Source of the DNA: Akkermansia muciniphila
GTDB lineage: Bacteria > Verrucomicrobiota > Verrucomicrobiia > Verrucomicrobiales > Akkermansiaceae
Assembly: GCA_945883695.1 (NCBI GenBank)
Contig: CAMCYK010000041.1
Location: 1-33,356 of the forward strand
Reading direction: 5' to 3'
DNA: 33,356 nt
In this document: positions 2,122-28,307 of the stretch, piece by piece
Layout: the number at the start of each line of letters is the position of its first letter
How positions within the stretch are numbered: position 1 is the stretch's first letter
Position numbers and translations under genes: made by a program
Notes under the pieces: generated by a model
Seen by the model: the letters and a program-made list of their open reading frames with translations, nothing else
What the model was told of the DNA's origin: nothing
Databases searched by the model: none

Positions 2122-2128
2122 ATCACTC

Positions 2129-3460
2129 ATGAATCCGCGCAACTCCAGCCATCGCTGCGAAGGCATATCCCGCCGGGACTTCCTGCATCTGGGAGTGCTG
2201 AGCTCCTTCGGCCTGAGCTTGCCCGGCCTGCTGCGGATGCAAGCCGCGGCGGCGGAAACGGGCAAGCCCGCGGCACGGGCGAAGTCATGCATTCTGATCT
2301 GGCTGGACGGCGGGCCGAGCCACCTCGACCTGTTCGATCCCAAGCCGGACGCGCCGTCGGAGGTGCGCAGCCAGTTCAAGGCGATCGGCACCGCCGTGCC
2401 GGGCGTGCAAATCTGCGAACATCTCCCCCGCACCGCCGCGCTGATGAACGAGGTGGCGCTCATCCGCTCGCTGACCCACGAGCTGGGCAACCACGACACC
2501 GGCTCGCGCTTTCTTCTAACAGGCCACCGGCCCGTGCCGGCGATGGAGCATCCCAGCCTCGGCAGCCTGGTCTCCCATGCCGCCGGAGCCGGCGGAACGA
2601 TGCCTCCCTACGTGGCGATCCCGCACGACGGGGTCGGCGGCGATTCGAACGCGGCGCGCTCGGGCTACCTGCCGGGGGCCTTCGCGGCCTTCAGCACCGG
2701 CCGCGATCCGTCGCGGGTGGACGGCTTGCAACTCCCGGAAGGCGTCGGCTTCGAGCGCGCTGCCCGGCGCCACGCGATGCTGGAAAAAATGGACGCCTTG
2801 TCACGGCAGGTCGAGCAAGGCCCGGGCACGGCGGATCGCGACGCCTACTACGAGCAAGCGTGGCGGTTGCTGTCCTCGCCGGAAGCCAAGGCGGCGTTCG
2901 ACCTGTCCCGCGAAGCCCCGAAGAACCGCGAACGCTACGGCCCCGCGAACATCGGGGCGGGCTGCCTGCTGGCACGACGGCTGGTGGAAGCCGGCTCGCG
3001 CTTCGTCACCGTGGTCGACCCCGGCTGGGACATGCACCAGCAGATCTTCCGCGAACTGCCGGACTCGCGCTTTCCCGGCAGCGGCAAGCTGCCGGCGCTC
3101 GATCGCGCCTACTCCGCCCTGCTGACCGACCTGCGCGAGCGCGGTTTGTTGGAATCGACCCTCGTCGTCCTGATGGGCGAGTTCGGCCGCACGCCGAAGC
3201 TCAACGCGCTGGGCGGCCGCGACCACTGGCCGCGCGCCGGCTCGGTGCTGATGGCCGGCGGCGGCGTGCGCGGCGGACAAGTCATCGGCGCGACCAATGG
3301 CTTCGGCGAGTTCCCGGTCGACCGGCCGGTCGGGCCGCCGGACCTCGCCTGCTCCATCTTGAAACTGCTCGGCGTCGACCCCGGCGCGGAACTCGTCACG
3401 CCGGCGGGCCGGCCGATGAAAGTCATGGCCGACGGAAGCTTTATCCGGGAGTTGGTATGA
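2129..3460 (+). CDS. DUF1501 family Tat-exported protein
   Basis: A 443-residue DUF1501 protein, a family with an alkaline phosphatase/sulfatase-like fold. The N-terminus carries a twin-arginine signal (SRRDFLHLG, R15-R16), so export as a folded protein is expected. Family motifs seen are the early WLDGGPSHLDLFDPKP segment, the LTHELGNHDTGSRFLLTGHRP block, and the late GEFGRTPKLN...GRDHWPRAGSVLMAGGG block, whose acidic and His residues match metal-binding positions of the fold. It lies 7 nt after the DUF1549/DUF1553 gene and shares an ATGA stop/start overlap with the following WD40 gene, so the three should be co-translated. The substrate is unknown. Length is normal and no damage is seen. 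Confidence 0.9.
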   Translation: MNPRNSSHRCEGISRRDFLHLGVLSSFGLSLPGLLRMQAAAAETGKPAARAKSCILIWLDGGPSHLDLFDPKPDAPSEVRSQFKAIGTAVPGVQICEHLPRTAALMNEVALIRSLTHELGNHDTGSRFLLTGHRPVPAMEHPSLGSLVSHAAGAGGTMPPYVAIPHDGVGGDSNAARSGYLPGAFAAFSTGRDPSRVDGLQLPEGVGFERAARRHAMLEKMDALSRQVEQGPGTADRDAYYEQAWRLLSSPEAKAAFDLSREAPKNRERYGPANIGAGCLLARRLVEAGSRFVTVVDPGWDMHQQIFRELPDSRFPGSGKLPALDRAYSALLTDLRERGLLESTLVVLMGEFGRTPKLNALGGRDHWPRAGSVLMAGGGVRGGQVIGATNGFGEFPVDRPVGPPDLACSILKLLGVDPGAELVTPAGRPMKVMADGSFIRELV

Positions 3461-5253
3461 CCCGCATCGCGTGCGTTCTGGCGTGGCTCTGCGGGTGGTC
3501 TGCGCTTCACGCCACGCCGGTCACCGCGCTGGCCTTCAGCCACGACGGTGCCGCGCTGGTCAACAACGGCGACCGCGTCGTCGAAGTGCGCTCGCCGAAG
3601 GACGCGGCGGTGCAACGCCGCATCGAATGCGCGCTGCCCAAGATCAGCGCCCTCGCCTTTTCGCCCGACGGCCGCTGGCTGGTCGCGGCCGGCGGCGAAC
3701 CCGGCCTGCGCGGCGAGGCGATGTTGTTCACATGGCCCGGCGGCGTATTGAAACATCGCTTCGGCCAACACGCGGACCTCGTCACCGGCGTCGCCTTCGA
3801 CCCCACGAGCCGGCGGCTCGTCACCGCTTCCGCGGACCATGACGCGACGGTCTGGTCGCTCGATCCCGAGCGCCCGCCGACTGAAAATTTCACCCTGCGC
3901 GGCCACTCCGCACCCCTGCTCGCGGCCGCCTTCAGTCCGGGCGATGGCAGTATCGTCACCGCCAGCGCCGACCGCTCGCTGAAAGTCTGGTCGGCGGCCG
4001 GGGGCAAGCTGCTGCGCTCGCTCGGCCAGCATACCGAGGCCGTTCACGCGCTGGCCTTCCGTCCGGCGGTCGAAGGCCCGGCCACCTGCGCGAGCGCCGG
4101 CGACGATCGCACGGTGCGACTTTGGCAGCCGGAGATCGGACGCATGGTGCGCATCGTCCGCCAGCACGAGGGCCCGCTGCTGGCGCTCGCATGGTCGCCG
4201 GACGGACGCCACCTGTTCTCGGCCGGCCAGGAAGGACTGATCCGCCGCATCGACGGTGACAGTGACGCGGTCGAGCGTGAGTGGCGCTCCGGCAGCGGCT
4301 GGATCTACGCCCTCGCCGCGAGTCCCGATGGGGCTTCCCTGGCCGCCGGCGACTGGTCGGGCAGCGTGACCTTGCACCCGTTGCACGATGCCGGGCCCGC
4401 CGTACTTCTCGCAGGAACCGCGGAATCCGAAATCGCCCCCCACGGCGGCGGCAACGTGTACGCCCCGGAAGTGCATCGCGACGGCGAACGCTGGCGGATG
4501 TGGTATGGCGGCCAGGGCAAGGACGGGCACGACCGCATCCACCTCGCGGAGTCCGTCGATGGCACAACGTGGCAGAAGCGCGGCGTGGTCCTAGACCGGG
4601 GCGGCGCGAACCATGTCAACGACCCCAGTGTCGTGCGGGTCGGCGGGCGGTGGTGGATGTTTTACACCGTCGCGGAGACCGGAGAAATGGACGAAATCGC
4701 CGCGGCCACCTCGGCGGACGGGGTGCAATGGGAACCACGCGGCGTGGTGCTCAAACGGGGCGACGGCCTGGCTTGGGACTCCAGGAAAGTCGGCCGCCCG
4801 TCGGTGCTGCACGAAGGGGGAGTGTTCCGGATGTGGTTCGACGGGCAGCCCGGCGACGGGGCCGTCGCCGCCGGCGAGCCCGCGGCGGCGATCCGGCGCG
4901 AAGGACGCGCCGTCGGCTATGCGGAATCGCCCGACGGCCTCGTCTGGCAACGCCGCCCGCTGCCCGTCCACCGCGAAGGGGCCGGGGCGGTCCACGTCGC
5001 CCGCGACGGAACGCGGCTGATCATGACAATCGAATCCCACGGCGGCACCCGCTGGGCCAGCAGCACGGACGGACTGCGATGGGAGAGCCGCGGCCTGCTC
5101 CATCCGCTGAGCGGCAGCCCCGCCGACCGCTTCGGGCACGTCACGCCCTTCTTGCTCACCACCGGCTCCACCCCGCGTCTCTTCTTCGGTGCCGCCTCCC
5201 GCCCATCGTGGGACGGCAACGCGATCTCCGCGACCGACATCGTGCTGCCGTGA
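3457..5253 (+). CDS. WD40 propeller fused to GH43/GH130-like propeller, secreted
   Basis: A 598-residue protein whose ATG overlaps the stop of the DUF1501 gene (ATGA), so translation is coupled. After a signal peptide (about 1-19), residues about 20-310 carry WD40 repeats, recognisable as HADLVTGVAFDP..TASADHDATVWS, HSAPLLAAAFSP..TASADRSLKVWS, HTEAVHALAF..AGDDRTVRLW and HEGPLLALAWSPDG. From about residue 325 the repeat type changes to blades with RWRMWYGGQ, NDPSVVRVGGRWWMFY, GRPSVLHEGGVFRMWFDG and YAESPDGLVW, typical of the five-bladed propeller of GH43/GH32/GH130-like glycosidases. The frame stays open upstream of 3457, but that part only antisense-shadows the DUF1501 gene in another frame. 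A role in sensing or binding carbohydrate alongside its operon partners is inferred. Catalytic activity is uncertain. Confidence 0.85.
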   Translation: MTRIACVLAWLCGWSALHATPVTALAFSHDGAALVNNGDRVVEVRSPKDAAVQRRIECALPKISALAFSPDGRWLVAAGGEPGLRGEAMLFTWPGGVLKHRFGQHADLVTGVAFDPTSRRLVTASADHDATVWSLDPERPPTENFTLRGHSAPLLAAAFSPGDGSIVTASADRSLKVWSAAGGKLLRSLGQHTEAVHALAFRPAVEGPATCASAGDDRTVRLWQPEIGRMVRIVRQHEGPLLALAWSPDGRHLFSAGQEGLIRRIDGDSDAVEREWRSGSGWIYALAASPDGASLAAGDWSGSVTLHPLHDAGPAVLLAGTAESEIAPHGGGNVYAPEVHRDGERWRMWYGGQGKDGHDRIHLAESVDGTTWQKRGVVLDRGGANHVNDPSVVRVGGRWWMFYTVAETGEMDEIAAATSADGVQWEPRGVVLKRGDGLAWDSRKVGRPSVLHEGGVFRMWFDGQPGDGAVAAGEPAAAIRREGRAVGYAESPDGLVWQRRPLPVHREGAGAVHVARDGTRLIMTIESHGGTRWASSTDGLRWESRGLLHPLSGSPADRFGHVTPFLLTTGSTPRLFFGAASRPSWDGNAISATDIVLP

Positions 5254-5320
5254 CAGGGCGGGCCTCGCCGCAGGATGGGCTTGCCCCGCGCCGCTCGATC
5301 ATCACATCTCCCTCCACCCG

Positions 5321-6481
5321 ATGAACCTCGCCGCCTTCTACCACGACCAGCTTTTCAATGACTGCCTGCCTTTCTGGTTCCCGCGCGCGGTCGATGCCGA
5401 ACACGGCGGTTTCCTCCATTGCTTCGACCGCGACGGCACGCTCGTCGACAGCGACAAGTCGGTGTGGGCCCAGGGCCGGATGAGCTGGATGCTGCTCACG
5501 CTTTACCTCGAGCACGAGCGCCGCCCGGAGTGGCTGGCCTGGGCGGAAAGCGGCCTGCGTTTCCTTGAGGAGAAATGCGTCGATCCCACCGACGGCCGGA
5601 TGTTCTTCCACGTCGCGCGGGACGGCACGCCGCTCCGCAAGCGCCGCTACGCCTACAGCGAAAGTTTCGCCGCCATCGCCTTCGCGGCCCACGCGGCGGC
5701 GGCGAACGACGGCGACTCGGCCGACAAGGCGCGCCACTGGTTCGAGCTCTTCACCGACTGGAACTTCACCCCCGGCCGGATCCCGCCGAAGTTCACCGGC
5801 GCGCGGCCGATGGAAGCCCTCGCCCCCCGGATGATCACGCTGGTTACCGCCCAGGAACTGCGCAAACACCTCGGCGAGGACCGCCTGCTGACCCGCTGGA
5901 TCGACCGCTGCCTCGATGACATCGAGCGGCTCTTCGCGAAGCCGGATCTCAAGGTCGTGATGGAAGCGGTGGCGCCCGACGGCTCGGTCTCCGATCACTT
6001 CGACGGTCGCCTGCTCAATCCCGGCCACGCGATCGAAGCCGCGTGGTTCGTGCTCGAGGAAGCCGCCCACCGGAAGGACTCGCGCCTCCGGCAGCTCGGC
6101 TGCGACATGCTCGACTGGATGTGGGACCGCGGTTGGGACCAGGAACACGGCGGTCTCTTCTACTTCCGCGACCTCCACGGCAAACCGGTCCAGGAATACT
6201 GGCAGGACATGAAATTCTGGTGGCCGCATGACGAGGCGCTGATCGCCACCCTGATGGCCCACCGGATGAGCGGCGACCCGAAGTATCTGACCCGGCACGA
6301 GCAACTCCGCGAGTGGAGCTTCCGCCATTTCGCCGACCCGGAGCACGGCGAGTGGTTCGGCTACCTGCGCCGCGACGGCGTGCCTTCGAGCACGCTCAAG
6401 GGCTCGCTGTGGAAGTCGTTCTTCCATCACCCGCGCGCCCTCTGGCGCTGCCACGGGCTGGCTTTGGAATCCGCGCTTTGA
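5321..6481 (+). CDS. N-acylglucosamine 2-epimerase (AGE) family protein
   Basis: A 386-residue protein, close to the usual length of AGE/cellobiose 2-epimerase family (alpha/alpha)6-barrel enzymes, which interconvert C2 epimers of sugars such as N-acetylglucosamine and N-acetylmannosamine, or glucose and mannose units. Family features are the N-terminal FWFPRAVDAEHGGF segment, the SVWAQGRMSWML block, the NPGHAIEAAWF motif with a probable catalytic His at 236, and the C-terminal KSFFHHPRALW with His369/His370. The frame is open further upstream, but the ATG at 5321 gives the family-typical N-terminus. There is no signal peptide, so it should act in the cytoplasm on sugars imported after outside degradation. 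It lies 67 nt after the WD40/GH-like gene. The exact substrate cannot be told from sequence. Confidence 0.88.
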   Translation: MNLAAFYHDQLFNDCLPFWFPRAVDAEHGGFLHCFDRDGTLVDSDKSVWAQGRMSWMLLTLYLEHERRPEWLAWAESGLRFLEEKCVDPTDGRMFFHVARDGTPLRKRRYAYSESFAAIAFAAHAAAANDGDSADKARHWFELFTDWNFTPGRIPPKFTGARPMEALAPRMITLVTAQELRKHLGEDRLLTRWIDRCLDDIERLFAKPDLKVVMEAVAPDGSVSDHFDGRLLNPGHAIEAAWFVLEEAAHRKDSRLRQLGCDMLDWMWDRGWDQEHGGLFYFRDLHGKPVQEYWQDMKFWWPHDEALIATLMAHRMSGDPKYLTRHEQLREWSFRHFADPEHGEWFGYLRRDGVPSSTLKGSLWKSFFHHPRALWRCHGLALESAL

Positions 6482-6519
6482 CCGCTTGCCGTCGCCGCCC
6501 GCCGCGGCGAGGGTGAGAT

Positions 6520-7464
6520 ATGCCGGAAGAAGAACCCCTCCATGACCCCTGGCTGGTCGCCGCGTGGCCCGGTATGGGTAGCGTCGCGCTCGGCGCGGGC
6601 TACTACCTGCTCGCCAAGCTTGGCATGCACCTGCTCGACGAGCTCCCGGCGCGCGAACTGTTCGACCTTGACCACGTCGACGTGAAGGACGGCCTGATCC
6701 AGGTCGCGCCGCTGCCCCGCAGCCGCTTGTTCTGTTGGAAGGACCCGCAACAGCGGCACGACCTGATCGTGTTCATCGGCGAGGCCCAGCCAACCGCGAA
6801 GAGCGGGCTGATCTGCCGCCAGCTGATCGACCGCGTCGCGCCGCTCGGGGTGAAGAAGGTCTTCACCTTCGCCGCGATGGCCACCGACATGCGCCCCGGC
6901 CAGGAGGGCCGGGTTTTCGGCGCGGCGGTCGACCGCGGGACGCTGGAGAGCTTCAAGCAACTCGACGTCCAGCTGCTGCAGGGCGGCCAGATCAGCGGCC
7001 TCAACGGCGTGCTGCTGGGCGTCGCCGCCGAGAGCGGGATGAGCGGCGGCTGCCTGCTCGGGGAAATGCCGGGCATGTTCGCGCAGCTCCCCTTCCCCAA
7101 GGCCTCGCTCGGCGTGCTCGAGTTCTTCGCGACCATGGCCGGCATAGAAATCGACCTGCGCGAACTCCAGGGCCACGCCCGCGACGTCGAGGGCAAGCTC
7201 GCGGGATTCCTGCAGAAGATCGAGCGCGCGATTCACGAGGTGGAGGCTCCGGAAGCCGCGGAGCCGCCGGAGCAAGCGCCGTCCGGATCCAAGAAACCAC
7301 GGCTGGAAGCGGCGGACCGCCAGCATCTCGAGCAGCTCTTCACCGAGGCCGCCCGCGACCGCTCCCGCGCCTATTTCCTCAAGCAGGAACTCGACCGCCT
7401 CCACGTGTTCCCGGAATACGAGGACCGCTTCCTCGACCTCTTCAAGGAGCCCGGACCGCCCTGA
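6520..7464 (+). CDS. PAC2 family protein
   Basis: A 314-residue cytoplasmic protein of the PAC2 (proteasome assembly chaperone 2-like) family. The start LVAAWPGMGSVALGAGYYL matches the family's conserved WPGMGNVA-type opening. IVFIGEAQPT, the run GVKKVFTFAAMATDM and the glycine-rich GLNGVLLGVAAESGMSGGCLLGEMPG are also typical. Residues about 10-235 form the PAC2 domain; the rest is a charged, probably helical tail (about 240-314) ending in KEPGPP. PAC2 proteins occur in archaea and some bacteria, often ones without a proteasome, and their bacterial function is unknown. It follows the epimerase gene by 38 nt on the same strand, so co-transcription is likely, though a functional link is not evident. 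Confidence 0.82.
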   Translation: MPEEEPLHDPWLVAAWPGMGSVALGAGYYLLAKLGMHLLDELPARELFDLDHVDVKDGLIQVAPLPRSRLFCWKDPQQRHDLIVFIGEAQPTAKSGLICRQLIDRVAPLGVKKVFTFAAMATDMRPGQEGRVFGAAVDRGTLESFKQLDVQLLQGGQISGLNGVLLGVAAESGMSGGCLLGEMPGMFAQLPFPKASLGVLEFFATMAGIEIDLRELQGHARDVEGKLAGFLQKIERAIHEVEAPEAAEPPEQAPSGSKKPRLEAADRQHLEQLFTEAARDRSRAYFLKQELDRLHVFPEYEDRFLDLFKEPGPP

Positions 7465-7541
7465 GGGCCGGCGGAAGCGATGCGCGGCAAATCGCAAGAA
7501 ACACGGGGCGGGGACGGCAGCCCTCGCCTAAGATCAAGAGC

Positions 7542-7640
7542 ATGAACAACAAGCAGACCGAGGAGTTCCGCAAGCAACTGATCGAACAACGCGAGCAGAT
7601 CGTCGCCGGCTGGGCGGACGAGGAAGAGTCCGCGGGCTAA
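7542..7640 (+). CDS. Possible 32-residue charged small protein
   Basis: A short frame beginning MNNKQTEEFRKQLIEQREQI and ending in EEESAG. It lies between the PAC2 gene and the second DUF1549 gene. Its composition is strongly charged, rich in Glu, Gln and Lys and helix-forming, unlike the Arg/Pro/Ala-rich translations of non-coding frames in this GC-rich DNA. That is the only support. No convincing ribosome binding site is seen (AAGAGC just upstream is weak), and no family is recognised. Confidence 0.35.
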   Translation: MNNKQTEEFRKQLIEQREQIVAGWADEEESAG

Positions 7641-7692
7641 CAGCATCACTTTCAGATTGAAAGAGAGGCGGCCGGACCCGAGTTAAGGGAGC

Positions 7693-10600
7693 ATGCTTCG
7701 TCCGCTCTCCTTGCTCATCGTCACCGCTTGCATCCCCGTGGCGGCGGAGCCCTTGCAGTTCAACCGGGATATCCGGCCGATCCTTTCCGAAAAGTGCTTC
7801 GCCTGCCACGGCTTCGATGCCAAGCATCGGGAGGCCGACCTGCGGCTCGACGAGCCGGCGGCCGCCTACCAGACGGACAAGCACGGCAACGCGGCCATCG
7901 TCCCCGGCAAGCCGGACGACAGCCTCATCTGGTATCACATCACCAGCACCGACGAGGACGAGCTGATGCCGCCGCCGGACTCCAACAAAAGCCTCAGCGC
8001 TGGCGAGAAGGCGACGCTGCGGCGCTGGATCGAGGAAGGTGCCTCCTACCAGAAACACTGGGCCTTCGAGGCTCCGAAAAAGCCCGCGGTGCCGGAGGGC
8101 GGCGGAGCGGAAATCGACCGCTTCATCGCCGCGCCCTTGACCGCCGCCGGCAAATCCCTTTCGCCGGAAGCCGACCGCCCGACGCTGGTCCGCCGGGTCA
8201 GCATGGCGCTGCGCGGACTGCCGCCGGCGATCGAAGAAATCGACACCTATCTCGCCGACCCGGCACCCGACGCCTATGAAAAAATGGTCGACCGTTTCCT
8301 GGCATCGCCCCACTACGGCGAGGAAATGGCCCGCCACTGGCTGGACGTCGCGCGCTACGCCGACACCCACGGGCTGCACCTCGACAACGAGCGCCAGACC
8401 TGGGCCTACCGCGACTGGGTGGTCGGTGCCTTCAACCGCAACCTGCCCTACGACCGCTTCACCGTCGAGCAGCTCGCCGGCGACCTGCTGCCGGAGCCGA
8501 CCCAGGACCAGTTGATCGCCACCGGCTTCAACCGCTGCAACGTGACCACCAGCGAGGGCGGCAGCATCGATGCGGAGTTCGTGTTCCGCTACGCGGTCGA
8601 CCGCGCCAGCACCACCGCCCAGGCCTTTCTCGGCCTGACCGCCGGCTGCGCGGTCTGCCACGATCACAAGTACGATCCGATCACCGCGAAGGACTTCTAT
8701 TCGCTCTACGCCTTCTTCCACTCCAATGCCGATCCGGCGATGGACGGCAACGCCATCCTGACCCAGCCGGCGCTCAAGGTGAAGCCGCCGGATTACGATG
8801 CGAAGATGCAATCGTTCGCGGAGCGCGAGGCGCATCTTAGAAAGGCGATGGAGGAGCGGGCCGCCACCGTGACCTATCAGGATCCCGCCGGACTTGAGCC
8901 GCGGCCGCCGGTGACCACGGTCGAGCAGGTGTGGTTCGAGGACAGCTTCCCGCAGGGCGCGGAGGTCGGCAGCACCGGCCATCCCCTGACTTATGTCGAC
9001 ACCCCGGTCGCCAGCGGCACGAAGTCGCTGAAGCGCGGCGGCCCCGGGGTAGCGCAGGATTACTACCAAGCCGGCGCGACGCCGTTCGAAGTGCCACAGG
9101 ACCCGGTGTTCTTCGTCCATGTCTATCTCGACCCCGCCGATCTCCCGGACGAGGTGATGATCCAGTTCCATAGCGACCAGTGGAAACACCGCGCGATCTG
9201 GGGCCAGGACCTCATCGAATTCGGCGCCAAGGGCACGACCGAGCGCTTCGTCGCCGGTCCCCTGCCCGAAGCCGGAAAATGGGTGAAGCTCGAGGTCCCG
9301 GGATCCAGCATCGGCCTCGCGCCGGGCACCAGGATCACGGGCTATGCCTTCACCGTCCACGGCGGCACCGTTCACTTCGACAAGCTGGGCGTCAGCGGCC
9401 GGACCGATCCGGCGGCGGACCCCGCCCTCTCGCTCGCCGCCTGGCGCGCGGCGCAGGCCGGCAAGGACACGCCCGGCGCGCCCGGCGACATCAACGCTTG
9501 GCTGAAGGAAGGTCCCGACAAGCCGCGGACGCCGGAGGAACTCAAGCGGATCCTCGAATACTACGTGCAGCAGGTCTGCGGCAGCACCCGCGGACATTTC
9601 GCCGCCCTTCACGAGCAACTGGCGGCGGTCGCGAAGGAACGCGGCGACTATGACGGATCGGTGCCCTCGACCTTCATCTTCAACGATCTCCCCCAGCCCC
9701 GCGAAAGTCATGTGATGGTGCGCGGCGAATACGACAAGCCGGGCGAGAAGGTCGAACCCGACACCCCCGCCGTGCTGCCCGCCCTGAAGAAGGCCGGACC
9801 GCGCGCGAACCGGCTCGACCTGGCGAACTGGCTGGTCGCCCCGGAGAACCCCCTCACCGCGCGGGTCGCGGTGAACCGCTTCTGGCAGCAGGTCTTCGGC
9901 AGCGGCCTGGTCCGCAGCAGCCATGACTTCGGCACCCAGGGCGAATTGCCGAGCCACGCCGAGCTGCTCGATTGGCTCTCCCTCTGGTTCCAAGAGAACC
10001 GCTGGGACGTCAAGCAACTGATGCGGCTGATGCTCACCAGCGCGACCTTCCGCCAGCAGAGCATGGCCCCCGCCGACCACTGGCTGGCCGACCCCGCCAA
10101 CCGCCGGCTTGCCCGCGGCCCGCGGTTCCGGCTCGATGCCGAACAGATCCGCGACCAGGCGCTCTTCGTCGGCGGCCTGATCCGCCTCGACATGGGCGGC
10201 AAGGGCGTGAACCCCTACCAGCCGCCCAACATCTGGGAGCCGGTCGGCTTCGGCGGCTCCAACACCCGCTTCTACCAGCAGGGCAGCGGCGACGCCCTCT
10301 ACCGGCGCTCGCTCTACACTTTCCTGAAACGCACCGCGCCGCATCCGCTGATGTCGAACTTCGACGCGCCCAACCGCGAGCAATCGTGCATCGCCCGCGA
10401 GCGCAGCAACACCCCGCTGCAAGCGCTGCAACTGATGAACGATGTCCAGCACTTCGAAGCCGCCCGCGCCTTCGCCCAACGCATCATGAGCGCCGCGGCG
10501 ACCCCCGAGCAACGGGTCGACTTCGCCTTCCGCAGCGTCACCGCCCGCCCGCCCGCGCCGGATGAATCCGCGATGCTGCTGGAGTTCCACCGGCAGCAAC

Positions 10601-10755
10601 TGGCGAAATACCAAGCCGCCCCCGACGAGGCGAAGAAAGCCGTCACTTTCGGCGAATCCAAGCCCCCTCCCGACCTGCCCGAACCCGAACTCGCCGCCTG
10701 GACGCTGGTCGCCAACCTCATCCTCAACCTCGACGAAGCCGTCGTCCGCAACTGA
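7693..10755 (+). CDS. Large DUF1549/DUF1553 protein with PSD1-type haem motif and lectin-like insert
   Basis: A 1020-residue secreted protein. After a signal peptide (about 1-18), a PSD1-type cytochrome domain has CxxCH at C35-H39 (CFACH) followed by AKHREADLRLD. DUF1549 starts near residue 142 (IDRFIAAPL) and contains MARHWLDVARYADTHG and a second CxxCH at C319-H323 (CAVCHDHKYDP). Residues about 470-580 form an extra beta-rich segment (FFVHVYLDPADLPDEVMIQF...GTRITGYAFTVHGGTVHFDKLG), resembling a concanavalin-like or carbohydrate-binding module. DUF1553 runs from about residue 703 (LANWLVAPENPLTARVAVNRFW) and includes the RLDAEQIRDQALFVGGLI and CIARERSNTPLQALQLMND motifs. AAGGGAG sits just before the ATG. 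The next gene is 8 nt away and encodes its DUF1501 partner. Function is unproven; exported polysaccharide processing or electron transfer is inferred. Confidence 0.92.
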   Translation: MLRPLSLLIVTACIPVAAEPLQFNRDIRPILSEKCFACHGFDAKHREADLRLDEPAAAYQTDKHGNAAIVPGKPDDSLIWYHITSTDEDELMPPPDSNKSLSAGEKATLRRWIEEGASYQKHWAFEAPKKPAVPEGGGAEIDRFIAAPLTAAGKSLSPEADRPTLVRRVSMALRGLPPAIEEIDTYLADPAPDAYEKMVDRFLASPHYGEEMARHWLDVARYADTHGLHLDNERQTWAYRDWVVGAFNRNLPYDRFTVEQLAGDLLPEPTQDQLIATGFNRCNVTTSEGGSIDAEFVFRYAVDRASTTAQAFLGLTAGCAVCHDHKYDPITAKDFYSLYAFFHSNADPAMDGNAILTQPALKVKPPDYDAKMQSFAEREAHLRKAMEERAATVTYQDPAGLEPRPPVTTVEQVWFEDSFPQGAEVGSTGHPLTYVDTPVASGTKSLKRGGPGVAQDYYQAGATPFEVPQDPVFFVHVYLDPADLPDEVMIQFHSDQWKHRAIWGQDLIEFGAKGTTERFVAGPLPEAGKWVKLEVPGSSIGLAPGTRITGYAFTVHGGTVHFDKLGVSGRTDPAADPALSLAAWRAAQAGKDTPGAPGDINAWLKEGPDKPRTPEELKRILEYYVQQVCGSTRGHFAALHEQLAAVAKERGDYDGSVPSTFIFNDLPQPRESHVMVRGEYDKPGEKVEPDTPAVLPALKKAGPRANRLDLANWLVAPENPLTARVAVNRFWQQVFGSGLVRSSHDFGTQGELPSHAELLDWLSLWFQENRWDVKQLMRLMLTSATFRQQSMAPADHWLADPANRRLARGPRFRLDAEQIRDQALFVGGLIRLDMGGKGVNPYQPPNIWEPVGFGGSNTRFYQQGSGDALYRRSLYTFLKRTAPHPLMSNFDAPNREQSCIARERSNTPLQALQLMNDVQHFEAARAFAQRIMSAAATPEQRVDFAFRSVTARPPAPDESAMLLEFHRQQLAKYQAAPDEAKKAVTFGESKPPPDLPEPELAAWTLVANLILNLDEAVVRN

Positions 10756-10763
10756 CCTCCGCC

Positions 10764-12221
10764 ATGAATCCCTTCTTCGAACAGCAGTTGCTGCAAACCC
10801 GCCGCCAGTTCTTCGGCCAAAGCGGCATCCGCCTCGGCGGACTCGCCATGGCATCGATGCTCGGCGGCCGGACCGCCGGCGCCGCCGCGTCCGCCGTCCA
10901 CCCGGCGATCGCCGGCCTGCCCCACTTCCCGGGCAAGGCCAAGGCGGTGATCTATCTCCACATGAACGGCGGACCGTCCCAGCTCGACCTGTGGGATTAC
11001 AAGCCGGACCTCAAGCAGCAGTTCGACAAGGACCTGCCGAAGAGCTTCCTCGGCGAACGGATCACCACCATGACCAGCGGCCAGGGCCGCTTCCCGGTCG
11101 CCCCGTCCAAATTCAGCTTCGCCCAACACGGCCAGTGCGGCCGCTGGGTCAGCGAACTGCTGCCGCACACCGCGAAGATCGTGGACGACCTCGCGCTGAT
11201 CAAAACCGTCCACACCAACGCGATCAACCACGACCCGGCCTGCACCTTCACCATGACCGGCTCCGAGGTCCCCGGCAAACCCAGCATGGGCTCGTGGATC
11301 TCCTACGGCCTCGGTGCCGAAACCAGCGATCTCCCGGCCTTCGTCGCGCTGATGCCGAGCTTCCCCAACGGTTCGAACGCCCAGGCGCTGTTCAGCCGGA
11401 TGTGGGGCCCCGGCTTCCTGCCCGGCAAGCATTCCGGCGTCGTGCTGCGCGGCGGCGGCGACCCCGTGCTCTATCTCGAGAACCCGCCCGGCGTCGCCCC
11501 CGCCGACCGCCGCGCGATGCTCGACACGCTTGGCAAGCTCAACGCGCGCGGCTTTGACAAGATCGGCGACCCCGACATCCAGACCCGCATCTCGCAATAC
11601 GAGATGGCCTACCGCATGCAGTCGAGCGTGCCGGAACTGACCGACCTCTCCAAGGAATCGCCCGCCAGCCTCGAACTCTACGGCGAGGACGTGAAGCGCC
11701 CCGGCTCCTTCGCCGCGAGCGCCCTGCTGGCGCGGCGGATGGTCGAGCGCGGCGTGCGCTTCGTCCAGATCATGCACCGCGGCTGGGATTCCCATGGCAA
11801 CCTGCCGGGCGAACTCTCCGCCCAGTGCAAGGACACCGACCAGGCCTGCGCCGCGCTGGTGATGGACCTCAAGCAGCGCGGGATGCTCGACGACGTGCTG
11901 GTCATCTGGGGCGGCGAATTCGGCCGCACCGTGTATTCCCAAGGCACGCTGACCGCCGAAACCTACGGCCGCGACCACCACCCGAAAAATTTCTGCATGT
12001 GGATGGCCGGCGGCGGGATCAAGGGTGGCGTCACCCTCGGCGAGACCGACGATTTCTCCTACAATCCGATCGCCGATCCGGTGCACGTCAACGAGATCAA
12101 CGCCACCATCCTCCACTGCCTCGGCATCGAGCACGACCGCTTCACCTTCCGCTACCAAGGCCTCGACCAGCGCCTGACCGGCGTGGAGCCGATGAACGTG
12201 ATCAAGCAGATCCTCGCGTGA
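10764..12221 (+). CDS. DUF1501 family Tat-exported protein (second copy)
   Basis: A 485-residue DUF1501 protein, 8 nt after the 1020-residue DUF1549/DUF1553 gene. The N-terminal TRRQFFGQSGIRLGG (R13-R14) is a Tat-type signal. Family landmarks seen are YLHMNGGPSQLDLWDYKPD, HTNAINHDPACTFTMTGSE, RFVQIMHRGWDSHGN, and WGGEFGRTVYSQG with GRDHHPKNFCMWMAGGGIKGG, whose acidic and His residues match metal ligands of the alkaline-phosphatase-like fold. It differs clearly from the 443-residue copy at 2129-3460: the lead is different and the central region is longer. The pairs therefore look like separate paralogous modules rather than a recent duplication. It ends 19 nt before a convergent gene. Confidence 0.92.
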   Translation: MNPFFEQQLLQTRRQFFGQSGIRLGGLAMASMLGGRTAGAAASAVHPAIAGLPHFPGKAKAVIYLHMNGGPSQLDLWDYKPDLKQQFDKDLPKSFLGERITTMTSGQGRFPVAPSKFSFAQHGQCGRWVSELLPHTAKIVDDLALIKTVHTNAINHDPACTFTMTGSEVPGKPSMGSWISYGLGAETSDLPAFVALMPSFPNGSNAQALFSRMWGPGFLPGKHSGVVLRGGGDPVLYLENPPGVAPADRRAMLDTLGKLNARGFDKIGDPDIQTRISQYEMAYRMQSSVPELTDLSKESPASLELYGEDVKRPGSFAASALLARRMVERGVRFVQIMHRGWDSHGNLPGELSAQCKDTDQACAALVMDLKQRGMLDDVLVIWGGEFGRTVYSQGTLTAETYGRDHHPKNFCMWMAGGGIKGGVTLGETDDFSYNPIADPVHVNEINATILHCLGIEHDRFTFRYQGLDQRLTGVEPMNVIKQILA

Positions 12222-21988: not shown

Positions 21989-23374
21989 ATGGACATTCTT
22001 ATTGTAGATGATGAACGGTCGATTCGACTCACCACCACGCTCGCCCTGGAGGGTGAAGGACACTACGTGGAATCGGCGGCGGTTGGCACCGTGGCCTTGC
22101 AACGGATCAAGGAGGAGGATTTCGATCTCGTGTTTCTGGATCTCCGGCTCGGCGATGAAGACGGCTTGGACATCCTGCAAAAGATCATGGAGCTGCGCCC
22201 GCAGGCACTGGTGGCGATTTTCACAGCACACGGGTCGATCCCGACCGCGGTCCGGGCCACCCAGCTGGGAGCCTTTGACTACCTCGAGAAGCCGTTCACG
22301 CCGGACCAGCTGCGGGCCATCCTGATCAAAGCGCAGAAGGTGCAGCGCAACCAGCAGGAGGTCAGCCAGCTCAAGGCCACGGTCCAGACGCTGAAAACCG
22401 AAGTCCGCCACTCGTCGCCGCCACTGAGCTTCCGCTCTTCCGACACCCGGGCGGAGGCTGACTTCGAAACGCTGTTCCGGGCCGCCCCCACCTCGGCTTC
22501 CATCCTCATCCTCGGGGAAAGCGGCACCGGAAAAAGCGTGATCGCCCATGAGATTCACGATCGCAACCGGCTGCGGGACAAACCCTTCGTCACCGTCAGT
22601 TGCCCGAGCCTCTCCAAGGATCTGCTGGAGAGCGCCCTGTTCGGCCACATGAAAGGCTCGTTCACGGGGGCGATCAAAGACACCTGGGGCAAGATCCACG
22701 CGGCGGACGGGGGCACCTTGTTCCTCGACGAGATCGGCGAACTTCCCATGGAGATCCAACCCAAGCTGCTGCGGTTCCTGCAAGAGAGGGAATACGAGCG
22801 GCTCGGGAAAACCAAGGTGCGGGAGGCCAACGTGCGGGTCATTGCCGCCACCAACCGCGACCTCAGGGCCAGCATGAAGGCGGGGGATTTCCGCGAGGAC
22901 CTTTACTACCGGCTCAACGTGATCAGCGTGACGGTCCCTCCCCTGCGCGAACGCCCGGCCGATCTCGAGCACTTCGCCAAGTCCTATCTCGAATTCTTCG
23001 CCGCCCAGGTGGGGCGTCGCATCGAGGGATTCAGCGAGAGCGGCCGCAGCGCCTTGTTGCGCCATTCCTGGCCGGGAAACCTGCGCGAGCTTCGGAACGC
23101 GATCGAGCGAGCCACCATCCTCGCCCGGGGGACCAAGGTCGAGGCGGAGGACCTGCCTCATCCGACCTTCCAATCCGCGGGCGAGGGAAATCCGGATCCA
23201 GACGGTCCGAACATCGGTGGCGAGCACAGCCTCGAGGAAATCGAGCAGGCCCATTTGACCAAGGTGCTCGGCTGGGCCCCCTCGCTTCAGGACGCCGCCC
23301 ATGTCCTGGGCATTGACAAGGCGACGCTCTACCGCAAGCGCAAGCGTCTCGGGCTCGATAGCTTGACCTCTTGA
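21989..23374 (+). CDS. Sigma-54-dependent response regulator (NtrC/AlgB type)
   Basis: A 461-residue NtrC-family regulator. A receiver domain (1-120: DILIVDDERS, phospho-acceptor D51 in DLVFLDLRLG, TAHGS, LEKPFTPDQL) is followed by an AAA+ domain with Walker A GESGTGKS (from G176), the sigma-54-contacting loop GSFTGA (223-228, a variant of GAFTGA), Walker B GGTLFLDEIGE, and arginine-finger region RFLQEREYERLG. A Fis-type helix-turn-helix ends the protein (SLQDAAHVLGIDKATLYRKRKRLG). The ATG at 21989 begins directly at the receiver; longer frames upstream add no family sequence. The sensor kinase gene starts 4 nt after the stop, giving the regulator-then-kinase order of AlgB/KinB-like pairs. 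Everything needed for activity is intact. Confidence 0.93.
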   Translation: MDILIVDDERSIRLTTTLALEGEGHYVESAAVGTVALQRIKEEDFDLVFLDLRLGDEDGLDILQKIMELRPQALVAIFTAHGSIPTAVRATQLGAFDYLEKPFTPDQLRAILIKAQKVQRNQQEVSQLKATVQTLKTEVRHSSPPLSFRSSDTRAEADFETLFRAAPTSASILILGESGTGKSVIAHEIHDRNRLRDKPFVTVSCPSLSKDLLESALFGHMKGSFTGAIKDTWGKIHAADGGTLFLDEIGELPMEIQPKLLRFLQEREYERLGKTKVREANVRVIAATNRDLRASMKAGDFREDLYYRLNVISVTVPPLRERPADLEHFAKSYLEFFAAQVGRRIEGFSESGRSALLRHSWPGNLRELRNAIERATILARGTKVEAEDLPHPTFQSAGEGNPDPDGPNIGGEHSLEEIEQAHLTKVLGWAPSLQDAAHVLGIDKATLYRKRKRLGLDSLTS

Positions 23375-23378
23375 GCCC

Positions 23379-24986
23379 ATGTTGCAACACCGCTTCATCC
23401 ATGGTCTCGGAATCCTCGTCCTCCTGCTCTGGCTCACCGGGATCTCCGCGCTGTTGCCCGCCGGGGGAATGATTTTGAATGGAAGCGGGAAACCCTATGA
23501 AGACGCGGGGAAACACATGATGTCTGTGAGTTCGATCATCCTGTTGGGAACCGCCACCGCCCTGCTGGTCTATCTCCAACTCTCCAAACATCTGGTGGAA
23601 CCGATGGCCTCCCTCGAACGGTCGATCGGCGGGATTCGCAAGGGCAATCTCGAGCGGACCCCTTCCGCGCCGGAACAAGCGAGCGCGTTTGGCGGCATGG
23701 TTCCCGCCATCAATGAGATGGCGGCGGAGCTGAGAAGCTCGCGGGGCCAAGACGATGACAATCTGAGGCGCGCCAACATCGTCAACCGCGCCATCCTCGA
23801 AGCCCTCCCGTCACCGGTGTTCGTGGTCGGCGAGAACGGCGGGGTCATCCATGTCAATCCCGCCGGGGAAAGCCTGTCGGAGAGCCTCGGCGTCGCCGGC
23901 CGCTTGCCGGCGAAAATCCAGCATATCCTCGACGAATGCCGGAGAAACCAGAGCCACTATCTGCCGCAGGACCCGCGCGAGGCCCTGGTCTTTCGCATCG
24001 CAGAGGAAGAGGTCTATTTCCTGCCCCGGATCTTCCGCTTCGATTCGGAAAACGACTCGCTTTCGGGTTGGGCGGTCTTGCTTCACAATGTCAGCCGCAT
24101 CCGCTGGCTGGATGACATGAAGACCAATCTGATCGCGACGGTCAGCCACGAGATCAAGACCCCGTTGACCGGCATCCGGATGGTGCTGCTGCTGCTTCTG
24201 GAAGAGCGGACCGGCCGGCTCGACCCGATGCAGCGGACCCTGGTGGACTCGGCCAGCGCCGACTGCGAGCGCCTGCTTGCCACCTTGAACAGCTTGCTGG
24301 ACCTCTCCCGGGCGGAAAGCGGATCCATGCACCTCAGCCGGGTGCCGGTGTCACTCCAGTCGATCATCGCGACAATCCCCAGCCAGTTCGAAGGACGGCT
24401 CGGCAGCCGCGGGCTGGATCTCAGCGTCGAGGAAGCATAAGCATCCGCGGACTTCCCGAAAGTTCTCGCCGACCCGGTCCGCCTGACGGAAGTGGTGAAC
24501 AACCTCGTGTCCAACGCGATCAACCACAGCCCGGAAAAGGGCGAGAGCGTGCTCCGGCTCGCCAAGCCGGACGGCGAACATATCCGCCTTTCGGTCATCG
24601 ATCAGGGGCCGGGCGTCCCCGAGGCGAGCCAGGGCCGGATCTTCGAGCGCTTCTATCGGGCACCGGGCCTGGCCTCGCAGGGCCTGGGAGTGGTCGATTT
24701 CCTGATCAAGCCGGCGGCCCCCGCCGACATCCGCCGGGTGGTCGAATTCGTTCTCGGCCCGCCGTGGTCACGCCTCGCGCAGGCGCTCCACGCCGCTCGA
24801 AGCGGCCAGCCCGAAACCGCCCTTGGGATCCTGGAAGCCGCGCACCAGGACCCCGATCCGACGGAATCCTGCTGGATCAAGGCCCTCAAACGGGTGGTCG
24901 AGGCGGATGCAGGCGGCGAGATGACCCAGCTCGAGGAAGAGGTCCGCTCGTGCTTCCCCGCGCTGGCCTTCAACCCGCCCGCATGA
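23379..24986 (+). pseudogene. KinB-like sensor kinase interrupted by TAA, with a receiver-like tail
   Basis: Residues 1-353 form an intact N-terminal part: membrane helix (about 8-30), a very short outside loop, a second helix (about 50-66), HAMP-like region, a PAS-like segment (ALPSPVFVVGENGGVIHVNPAGE) and HisKA with H257 in TVSHEIKTPLTGIRM. An in-frame TAA at 24438-24440 (after LDLSVEEA) stops translation before the ATPase domain. The same frame continues at once with FPKVLADPVRLTEVVNNLVS (N box), DQGPGVPE (G1) and IFERFYRAPG (F box). Where the G2 box is expected it changes to VVDFLIKPAAPADIRRVVEF, the end of a receiver domain, then an unassigned tail to 24986. So there is both a nonsense codon and an apparent internal fusion or deletion. 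The first part might still be made as a 353-residue kinase-dead protein. Confidence 0.75.
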
Positions 24987-25154: not shown

Positions 25155-25592
25155 ATGAATGCGATCGAAGAATGTATCGAAGCCTGCAACAAGCTCCTCC
25201 GCGGCGAACTTTCCGCGTTGGAGTCCTACACCCGAGCCATCAAGAAATTCGAGACCGAGGGCGAGCGCACGGCCCTTCAAGGCATCCGTTCCGGCCACGA
25301 GAAGCCGGCGGCCAGCCTGCGGTCCCACATCCAGGACATGGGTGGCAGGCCGTCCGAAAGTTCGGGCGCATGGGGCGGCTTCGTCCAGGCGCTGGAAGGC
25401 GCGGCCCTGGTGCTCGGTGAGTCCCCGCCACTCGCCGTGCTCGAAAAAGGCGAGCAACACGGCATCGACGAGTATCGGGAGGCGCTCGCGGACGAGGACG
25501 TGATGGAGGAAATCAAACAGGTGATCCGCGGCCAGCTGCTGCCCTCCTGCGCGCAACACCTCGTGACGCTCGGGCGCTTGAGGAAAGCGTGA
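25155..25592 (+). CDS. DUF2383 (PA2169-type) four-helix-bundle protein
   Basis: A 145-residue cytoplasmic helical protein: MNAIEECIEACNKLLRGELS, LESYTRAIKKFETEG, SGHEKPAASLRSHIQDMGG, SGAWGGFVQALEGAALVLGE and KGEQHGIDEYREAL. The early C.EACN.L..GE..A...Y..A pattern, the central HE....LR.HI...GG motif and length about 145 match DUF2383/PA2169 family proteins, which adopt a ferritin-like four-helix bundle. Their molecular function is unknown; the genes often sit in stress loci with DUF892 and entericidin-like genes, as here. It has its own well-formed terminator and ends before a convergent DUF892 gene. Confidence 0.85.
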   Translation: MNAIEECIEACNKLLRGELSALESYTRAIKKFETEGERTALQGIRSGHEKPAASLRSHIQDMGGRPSESSGAWGGFVQALEGAALVLGESPPLAVLEKGEQHGIDEYREALADEDVMEEIKQVIRGQLLPSCAQHLVTLGRLRKA

Positions 25593-25783: not shown

Positions 25784-26284
25784 CTAAACCGCAACCAACG
25801 ACAGGGGTCTCGCGGTGGAAGGTTCGTACTGACCGGGTGGTGGTTCCGGAAAGGTCTCGGCCATGGCCTCGATCACCTCGTCGAAGCAGCCGGCATCCAC
25901 GTGGAGACCCTCCTCGGCCGCGAGTTTGCGCGCCAGGCGGTAATCCACCATGATCACGCGGTGGAGTTGATGGCAGAAGGTTTCGACCGCAGGATCGTGG
26001 CGCTCGCCGCGATTCTCCCCGGCCAGCCGGGCGCTGCCGACGGCAATTAATTTTCGCATCGACAGACATTCGTCGCCGAGCGCGGAAATCCCGTGGTCCC
26101 ACGCCAGGTCGTTGATCATGTAGCGCCGGTAGCGGGCGGCGGCGAGATAGCCGGTCATGATTTCCCTCAACCGGGGACGAGTCGCTTCCGCGACCAGATC
26201 AGGCAACAGGCGGATGAGCAGTTGTTCCCTGCAATGGATCAAGCGGAGCCTTCCGTAATAGAAGGAAAGGTTTGGTTCTTTCAT
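25784..26284 (-). CDS. DUF892 (YciF-like) ferritin-like protein
   Basis: A 166-residue helical protein. LSFYYGRLRLIHCREQLLIRLLPDLVAEATRPRLREIMTGYLAAARYRR corresponds to the DUF892 opening (F...L..LY..E.QL...LP.....A....L......H...T). The internal LGDECLSMRKLIAVGSARLAGE and the late HQLHRVIMVDYRLARKLAAEEG segment match the family's C.....L..E and ..E...Y..A...A..LG blocks. Several metal-ligand His/Glu positions look altered (for example YLAAARYRRYM where a His is usual), so iron binding is doubtful. CGGAG upstream of the ATG at 26284 supports the start. It is convergent with the DUF2383 gene and fits the stress-locus context. Confidence 0.68.
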   Translation of the reverse strand: MKEPNLSFYYGRLRLIHCREQLLIRLLPDLVAEATRPRLREIMTGYLAAARYRRYMINDLAWDHGISALGDECLSMRKLIAVGSARLAGENRGERHDPAVETFCHQLHRVIMVDYRLARKLAAEEGLHVDAGCFDEVIEAMAETFPEPPPGQYEPSTARPLSLVAV

Positions 26285-26535: not shown

Positions 26536-28142
26536 TCAAGCGGAGGGGACGGCGCTCCCCGCACCGCCTCGTTGAAGCAGCAGACGCAGGTCGGACGGAC
26601 TTACCGGCTTCACCAGATGTTCGTCAAAACCCGCCTCCCGCGACCGGGCCATGTCCTGCGGCTGTCCCCACCCGCTGAGCGCGACCAGAGTCACCCCCGC
26701 GCCGCCCTGCAAGGCCCGGATCTTCCGCGCGGCTTCAAAGCCATCCATCCGGGGCATGCCGAGATCCATCAAGACCAGGTCCGGCAACGACAGGGCCACC
26801 TTGCGCACCGCCTCTTCCCCGTCATACGCCACGTCCACCTCGCGACCCTCCAGCTTGAAAAACATCGCGAGAATGTCGGCGGTGCTCTTCGCGTCCTCGA
26901 CGATCAGCACCCGCTGCCATTTCCCGCTGTCCTCGACCACCCCCGCCGGCGCTCCGGTATCACCCGGTGCCTTGACGGTCGCGCCGGCAGGCAGGCGGAT
27001 CGTGAACTCGCTGCCCTTTCCAATCCCGGCGCTTTTCACCTCGATGCATCCCCCGTGCAGCTCCACCAGCATTTTCGCCAGCGTGAGCCCGATCCCCACG
27101 CCGTCTTGACGACCGTGTTCGTCCTGCTCGAACCGGTTGAAGATACTCTCGATCCGGGACGCTTCGAGCCCGCGCCCGTCGTCGGTGATCGCGATCCACG
27201 GCCGCGCGTCTCCCGCCACGCCGAAGGACAGCCGGATGCTCCCCCCGGCCGGGGTGTATCTCGCGGCATTCGACAGCAGGTTCGAGACGACCTGCGCGAT
27301 CCGGTGGGCGTCCACCTCCACGTCCACGCCGGCTCCCCCGGATTGGATCTCGAAATGCTGCCCTTGCTCCTTGAACAGCGGCCGGCAAGCATCCGCCGCC
27401 CCGCGCAGGAGCTCATCGAGCGGAACCACCGATTTCTTCAAGGCGATCTTTCCCGTGTTGATCCGTGCCATGTCCAGGAGATCGTCGATAAGATGCACCA
27501 TCTGTCCGGTCTGGCGCTCCATCATCGCGGCCCCCCGGGCAACCATTCCGGGATCCGACGATAAAGCCCGGATCACTTCCAGCCCGGTCAGGATGGAAAC
27601 CAGCGGATTTCTCAGTTCGTGCGCGAGCGTCGCAAGGAACGGGTCCTTGCGGCAATGCGCCTCGCTCTCGACGAGTTTCGCCTCGATCGCGCGACGCTCG
27701 GTGACATCCCGCGAGATCGACAACAGCGCCGCCCGTCACCCGGCGCGGCATGCAGCGAAACCACCGCCACGTTCCACCATCTCGGCAGGCCGTCCAAAGT
27801 CGCGCCGCACGCTTCGAAGCGTCCCACGCCGCCGGCCAACGCCAGGTCGATCGCGTTGCGGGCGGCTTGCTGGTGGTCGTCGCCCGCCCACAACTTGACC
27901 CAGTCCAATCCGACCACCGGATCGAGCCCCTGCGCCTCGATCATCTCCAGTCCCCGGGTGTTGATCCCGGTGATTTTTCCGGCGCGATCCAGAATCTTGA
28001 TGCAGTCCGGGCTGTGCTCCATCACCGCCGGGCACACATCCGGGTCTCCGGCCAGGGAGCGTTTGCCATCCGCCGCCGCTTTCCCACCCGCATGGGGCAT
28101 TGGGTCCAACCGGTCAGCCGGCTTCCTGGCGTCGAAAGGCAT
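26536..28142 (-). pseudogene. PAS/histidine kinase/receiver hybrid with a frameshift
   Basis: Read from the ATG at 28142, the first frame gives a PAS domain (DVCPAVMEHSPDCIKILD, ITGINTRGLEMIE, LDPVVGLDWVKLW, LPRWWNVAVVSLHAAPGDG). Near 27730 the frame must shift by one base to continue as LLSISRDVTERRAIEAKLVE, the usual PAS-to-kinase linker. Then come HisKA (FLATLAHELRNPLVSIL), the ATPase boxes (NLLSNAARYT, DDGRGL, DGVGIGLTLAKMLVELHGG) and a receiver (VLIVEDAKSTADIL, DLVLMDLGMPRMDGFEAA, HLVKPVSPSDL), ending at 26536. A single missing base explains it, so this is a 535-residue soluble hybrid kinase that is either broken or misread in the assembly. The kinase half has no in-frame ATG near the break, only a TTG at 27723. 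All catalytic motifs are intact. Confidence 0.78.
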
Positions 28143-28179
28143 GACGTGTAAACTAGACCCGCCAGGGGAACTTACAACT

Positions 28180-28196
28180 TGCAAGATGCCTTGCAG
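28180..28196. promoter_or_regulatory. TGCAAG...CTTGCA inverted repeat upstream of the hybrid kinase
   Basis: TGCAAG and CTTGCA flank a 4-base centre about 40 bp before the hybrid kinase start. It contains the TGCAAGATGC motif, the reverse complement of the site upstream of the sigma-54 regulator. A dyad this close to the start could be an operator. No matching sigma-54 -24 element is seen beside the TTGCA. Confidence 0.35.
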
Positions 28197-28278
28197 GGGC
28201 GGTCGCCACCACCCGTCCGGCGGGCGGGCCGCCGTGGCTGGATGGGGCACACTTTTGGCACACCCTCCCCCGCTCCAC

Positions 28279-28307
28279 AAAAAATCCCGGCGCCTTTCAG
28301 CTCCGGG
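28279..28307 (-). terminator. Intrinsic terminator downstream of the tRNA-Leu fragment
   Basis: On the - strand, CCCGG and CCGGG (28303-28307 and 28286-28290), with two further G-C pairs inside, enclose a short loop. They are followed directly by ATTTTTTG (six T, 28279-28284). It begins 23 nt beyond the tRNA 3' end and is oriented to stop its transcript. It is the best-formed T-run terminator in the window and appears to be the native terminator of the original tRNA gene. Confidence 0.75.

Follow-up and report, generated by a model that had tools for sequence, protein, structure and literature searches.

An intact NtrC-type regulator beside a probably decayed membrane histidine kinase in Akkermansia muciniphila

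An intact NtrC-type response regulator gene in Akkermansia muciniphila is followed by a histidine kinase gene with an in-frame stop: what can this kinase still do, and what becomes of its regulator? We analyzed the locus within a 33,356-nucleotide stretch of one contig, referred to here as the window. All of the evidence comes from one draft assembly of 391 contigs, compared with one genome per species. Our analysis indicates that the window probably holds a decayed membrane histidine kinase operon: the regulator is intact, while the kinase lacks its sensor region, is stopped after its acceptor domain and is fused by a ~400–440-bp deletion to a destroyed receiver-plus-tail gene, leaving the regulator uncoupled. 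A regulator left after its own kinase apparently just lost catalysis amounts to a natural experiment that bears on the survival of orphan regulators.

The regulator (21989–23374, + strand) has the composition of the NtrC class: Pfam finds a receiver (REC) and a sigma-54 AAA+ domain, and a Fis-type helix-turn-helix (HTH_8) falls marginally below cut-off (21.7 versus 22 bits). It retains its Asp, its Walker A motif and a GAFTGA-like loop that reads GSFTGA, and only 4 of 163 columns that are otherwise invariant in the alignment of relatives are altered, all mildly, which bears out the description of an intact partner regulator in the earlier note. In NCBIfam, no cut-off was reached for the regulator or the kinase among the best 25 matches listed. 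The regulator tree gives the window a long end branch (0.34, versus 0.05 for G177), which may mean that the regulator itself is losing constraint; in RpoB (first ~510 residues), the branch of the window genome is 0.027, the sixth longest of 16 tips and not unusually long. The window regulator clusters with rows of genus g13 (G177 and G256; support 99), whereas RpoB assigns the genome to g1. Together with the long branch, this grouping could reflect either horizontal transfer or paralogy. Against plasmid sequences, the best 15 of 483 records stood at 38–42%.

The kinase reading frame (23379–24440, + strand) encodes 353 amino acids, with two membrane helices discerned by eye, weak PAS matches and a HisKA domain. 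Aligning it with relatives revealed three lesions: firstly, ~140 residues are absent between the two presumed membrane helices (approximate site 23487–23516), and the input region has no Pfam match to HAMP, a domain scored at 1e-7 in a relative's kinase, a loss that the earlier note had overlooked; secondly, a TAA at 24438–24440 ends the frame within a 6-bp tandem repeat (AAGCAT-AAGCAT, 24433–24444), with three additional codons in the window around this stop; thirdly, the ATPase domain is cut at its G2 box. The acceptor (DHp) domain is conserved throughout: HisKA (24120–24323; residues 248–315, Pfam 7.5e-17) has its phospho-accepting His in an intact H-box (SHEIKTPLTG), with none of 30 invariant columns changed. 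The stop sits 38 residues past this match. Beyond it the same frame reopens immediately and stays open to 24986 (the listed ORF, 24492–24986, starts with GTG), and no complete HATPase_c follows: the remnant (24441–24689) has N, G1 and F boxes and covers profile positions 2–76 of 111. With HisKA before the stop and a partial HATPase_c after it, the TAA lies between acceptor and ATPase, as had been proposed from the sequence, and the ATPase ends prematurely.

In relatives, the same regulator is followed directly by a full-length membrane histidine kinase of 601–613 aa (~605) in all 26 of the full-length loci that we collected from genus, family and order genomes. One such kinase contains HAMP, PAS, HisKA and HATPase_c by Pfam, and a relative's sensor region compared with solved chains gave no match at E 10 or less. 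Behind the kinase, 24 of the 26 loci (L035–L044 and L166–L181; L179 ends ~1.6 kb past the kinase) carry a separate gene of ~205 aa, a receiver with a weakly TPR-like tail that forms a conserved third member of the operon. The window's tail, VDFLIKPAAPADIRRVV..., aligns to the C-terminal half of this protein. Between RAPG in the kinase and VDFL in the receiver, we measured 24 nt in the window and 427–463 nt in relatives, using a script that located both anchors in 12 of the 24 receiver-bearing loci. These distances support the suspected deletion joining two genes. It removes ~400–440 bp, starting at the G2 box of the ATPase and ending inside the receiver gene (junction at 24686–24694, + strand), and joins the two in frame; because kinase and receiver are read in frames that differ by one position in those 12 loci, it was the deletion that created a single common frame. 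What is left of the receiver-plus-tail gene (24690–24986, + strand) is its C-terminal part, the half with the phospho-acceptor Asp being gone. The earlier note was therefore right that the ATPase runs into a receiver-type ending near a GLG, with one correction: this GLG, which corresponds to G(V/I)GLGL in relatives, is all that belongs to the G2 box, and receiver codons follow it directly. A conserved chimeric architecture is ruled out, as not one of the 26 full-length loci carries the fused tail.

Searching 57 genomes, the window's own among them, with the 353-aa protein, we obtained orthologues from nine further members of the genus and from G027. Within its own draft assembly, the single strong match was the window kinase (next best 4.4e-8) and no intact copy turned up elsewhere; a relative's receiver, compared with that genome, best matched the operon's own regulator (2.9e-12). 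The gene order, the missing pieces and the lack of another copy in this assembly are direct observations.

In histidine kinases, the G2 box contributes to the ATP lid. With this box gone and a stop ahead of the ATPase, the kinase would be incapable of ATP-driven autophosphorylation, with or without read-through, and the regulator would receive neither phosphate from its own kinase nor normal kinase-coupled dephosphorylation; it would then idle unphosphorylated or accept phosphate from another kinase. In our judgment, the kinase is most likely non-functional and no longer coupled to the regulator. By analogy with the Pseudomonas and Bordetella systems described below, the regulator would be unpaired, as the earlier note suggested, and some other kinase may feed it.

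Measures of divergence suggest when these losses occurred. With the topology fixed to that of the regulator, the end branch of the window accounts for 4.7% of the tree length in the regulator, 5.1% in HisKA, 4.0% in HATPase, 4.9% in PAS and 7.2% in TM2-HAMP, and the invariant columns changed outside HisKA number 0 of 15 (HATPase), 1 of 15 (PAS) and 2 of 4 (TM2-HAMP). Codon changes against four relatives are dominated by third positions before the stop and after it alike, the exception being a 33-codon linker where they are nearly even. Divergence in the acceptor and ATPase segments does not exceed that of the regulator, so the lesions that affect catalysis look recent, and it seems that sensing was released first and catalysis lost recently. 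One feature counts against decay: both deletions keep the frame, for which the chance expectation is about 1 in 9, and a freely decaying gene often shows frame shifts. The fully conserved acceptor domain, too, would be compatible with a truncated protein that has kept a role.

Such a role, which we consider unlikely, would have the 353-aa product (membrane anchor, PAS and DHp) work without an ATPase, either relaying phosphate from a hybrid kinase to the regulator or serving as a phosphatase or phosphate sink, much like the role proposed below for DHp-only proteins of relatives. The stop does fall beyond an unaltered HisKA, a hybrid-type kinase lies 1.5 kb past the locus, and in four relatives the same slot holds a DHp domain alone, followed by a hybrid kinase. 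However, the ATPase remnant is conserved as well as the DHp domain relative to the tree, which argues that it was under selection until recently; moreover, the window's hybrid is frame-shifted, and the tree places the window regulator inside the full-length clade, apart from the DHp-only rows. Loss of kinase function thus remains our preferred reading, and the truncated kinase is improbable as a separate case on the way to the DHp-only state.

The relatives' DHp-only proteins make a comparison worth more than the window case itself. In four genomes (G014, G028, G024 and G013), the kinase slot after the orthologous regulator (60–63% identity) holds an ORF of 66–76 aa with a HisKA domain alone, including its His (2.6e-13 to 3.8e-11, nothing else above cut-off in Pfam; L046, 4558–4758, + strand, and also L045, L047 and L048). 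After a further 15–171 nt, a PAS-HisKA-HATPase-REC hybrid kinase begins in all four, and none was seen in the flanks retrieved for the 26 full-length loci among matches listed for three of five hybrid queries. These genes occur in 4 of 260 family genomes, and the same four were recovered among 386 order genomes; among at least 80 loci listed from named genomes, none had the short frame, and those matches looked like ordinary kinases. Pairwise differences at codon positions 1, 2 and 3 (0.36–0.55, 0.21–0.41 and 0.56–0.73) are consistent with real coding genes, although the test is weak: by NG86, dS is finite (about 3) in two of six pairs, with dN/dS about 0.14 and 0.25, and undefined in the other four. 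In the tree of regulators, all DHp-only rows but G028 group together (93), a single clade of the four not being rejected (p-AU 0.182), and full-length rows surround them, as would be expected if a full-length kinase had been reduced. The helix past the His (LTGI.M..HLL) resembles that of full-length kinases. At a distance of a few kb, three of the four loci also have receivers related to the operon's third gene.

The DHp-only proteins end after the DHp domain, leaving no ATPase-like second domain before the next start. Spo0B keeps such a domain. ChpT also retains one (PMC3433190), a difference from the 66–76-aa proteins; both are pseudo-kinase phosphotransferases in which a dimeric DHp hairpin, the element that recalls the relatives' proteins, relays phosphate between receivers (PMC9981736, PMC3433190, PMC6136694). 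To pass phosphate from its terminal receiver to a second one, a hybrid kinase needs a His carrier (PMC9981736). Its position suggests that the DHp-only protein could be that carrier, a predicted minimal phosphotransfer protein. We therefore put forward, as a tentative idea with somewhat less than even support, that the kinase of this family's NtrC-type regulator can lose everything but its DHp hairpin and take on a new use as a minimal dimeric histidine phosphotransferase that has no ATPase-like domain, passing phosphate from the neighboring hybrid's receiver to the regulator, with the four proteins as predicted cases. If this is true, a conserved DHp-only gene between regulator and hybrid would show how a two-component pair can become a phosphorelay by simple domain loss, and its product would be smaller than any pseudo-kinase phosphotransferase in the literature examined. 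No DHp-only carrier was found in the available text of the literature searched, which is no proof that none is in print.

An assembly or sequencing error, in the form of a collapsed or chimeric contig with a miscalled repeat, could also produce such a locus, and we regard this as quite unlikely. The draft is fragmented into 391 contigs, the TAA lies within a short tandem repeat and the nearby hybrid is frame-broken as well; yet error would have to account for the sensor gap, the stop and the junction, three separate in-frame differences within one gene, in a window whose other genes look intact. When 20 other ORFs of the window, including some alternative frames picked for testing, were compared with Pfam, 12 gave a family match at 1e-5, with main domains that in most cases cover almost the entire profile. 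Frame breaks are therefore no general feature of the window, the hybrid kinase being the exception. The contig's composition also matches the genome: the tetranucleotides of positions 1–21000 correlate with those of five other stretches at r 0.98. This composition and the PAC2 gene, whose homologues are confined to g1 (4 of 17 genomes, with three at 73–76%), rule out a misbinned contig, a concern prompted by a g13-like regulator in a genome that RpoB assigns to g1; a DUF1549/1553 protein has many paralogues and is hence uninformative for placement. In positions 4–12221, DUF1549/DUF1553 and DUF1501 genes form two sets, separated by WD40, epimerase and PAC2 genes, and Pfam identifies planctomycete-type cytochrome genes in the window besides those of DUF1501, a gene content that would point to Verrucomicrobiota or Planctomycetota. 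A functional kinase-receiver fusion made by stop read-through is highly improbable: the frame is open on either side of the single TAA, but the G2 box is incomplete, the receiver lacks its Asp half and no full-length locus has the fusion.

If decay has indeed uncoupled the regulator, which kinase might replace its own? The earlier note had named the nearby hybrid. Its core (HisKA, HATPase_c and REC; 26536–27723, − strand) and its PAS part (27615–28280, − strand; PAS_4 1.1e-8) are in different frames, with the break near 27720, and its three best matches in relatives are frames of 648–904 aa. Being frame-shifted from its PAS domain, it is weaker as a replacement kinase; the proposal stands as a possibility and is not favored. 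The window's pair may be similar to KinB–AlgB, to judge by the known domain layout of KinB and AlgB. In Pseudomonas aeruginosa, AlgB receives its phosphate from a separate kinase, BphP, whereas KinB removes it (PMC6932827), so that loss of a kinase can raise regulator phosphate. There, as in the window, a regulator gene lies beside a membrane kinase gene; the window genome, however, has no match to the bacteriophytochrome domain PAS_2, which rules out a light-driven replacement kinase of the Pseudomonas type. A further parallel is offered by Bordetella pertussis, where risS is a pseudogene beside a kept regulator, RisA, that is still active and requires another kinase, RisK (PMC5020355). RisS is broken by a frame shift and RisK was found experimentally, whereas the window kinase carries a stop and two deletions and has no known replacement. 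Adjoining the broken operon are a DUF2383 gene (25155–25592, + strand) and a DUF892 gene (25784–26284, − strand), and the surroundings of the DHp-only locus in G028 likewise include genes that resemble these by eye.
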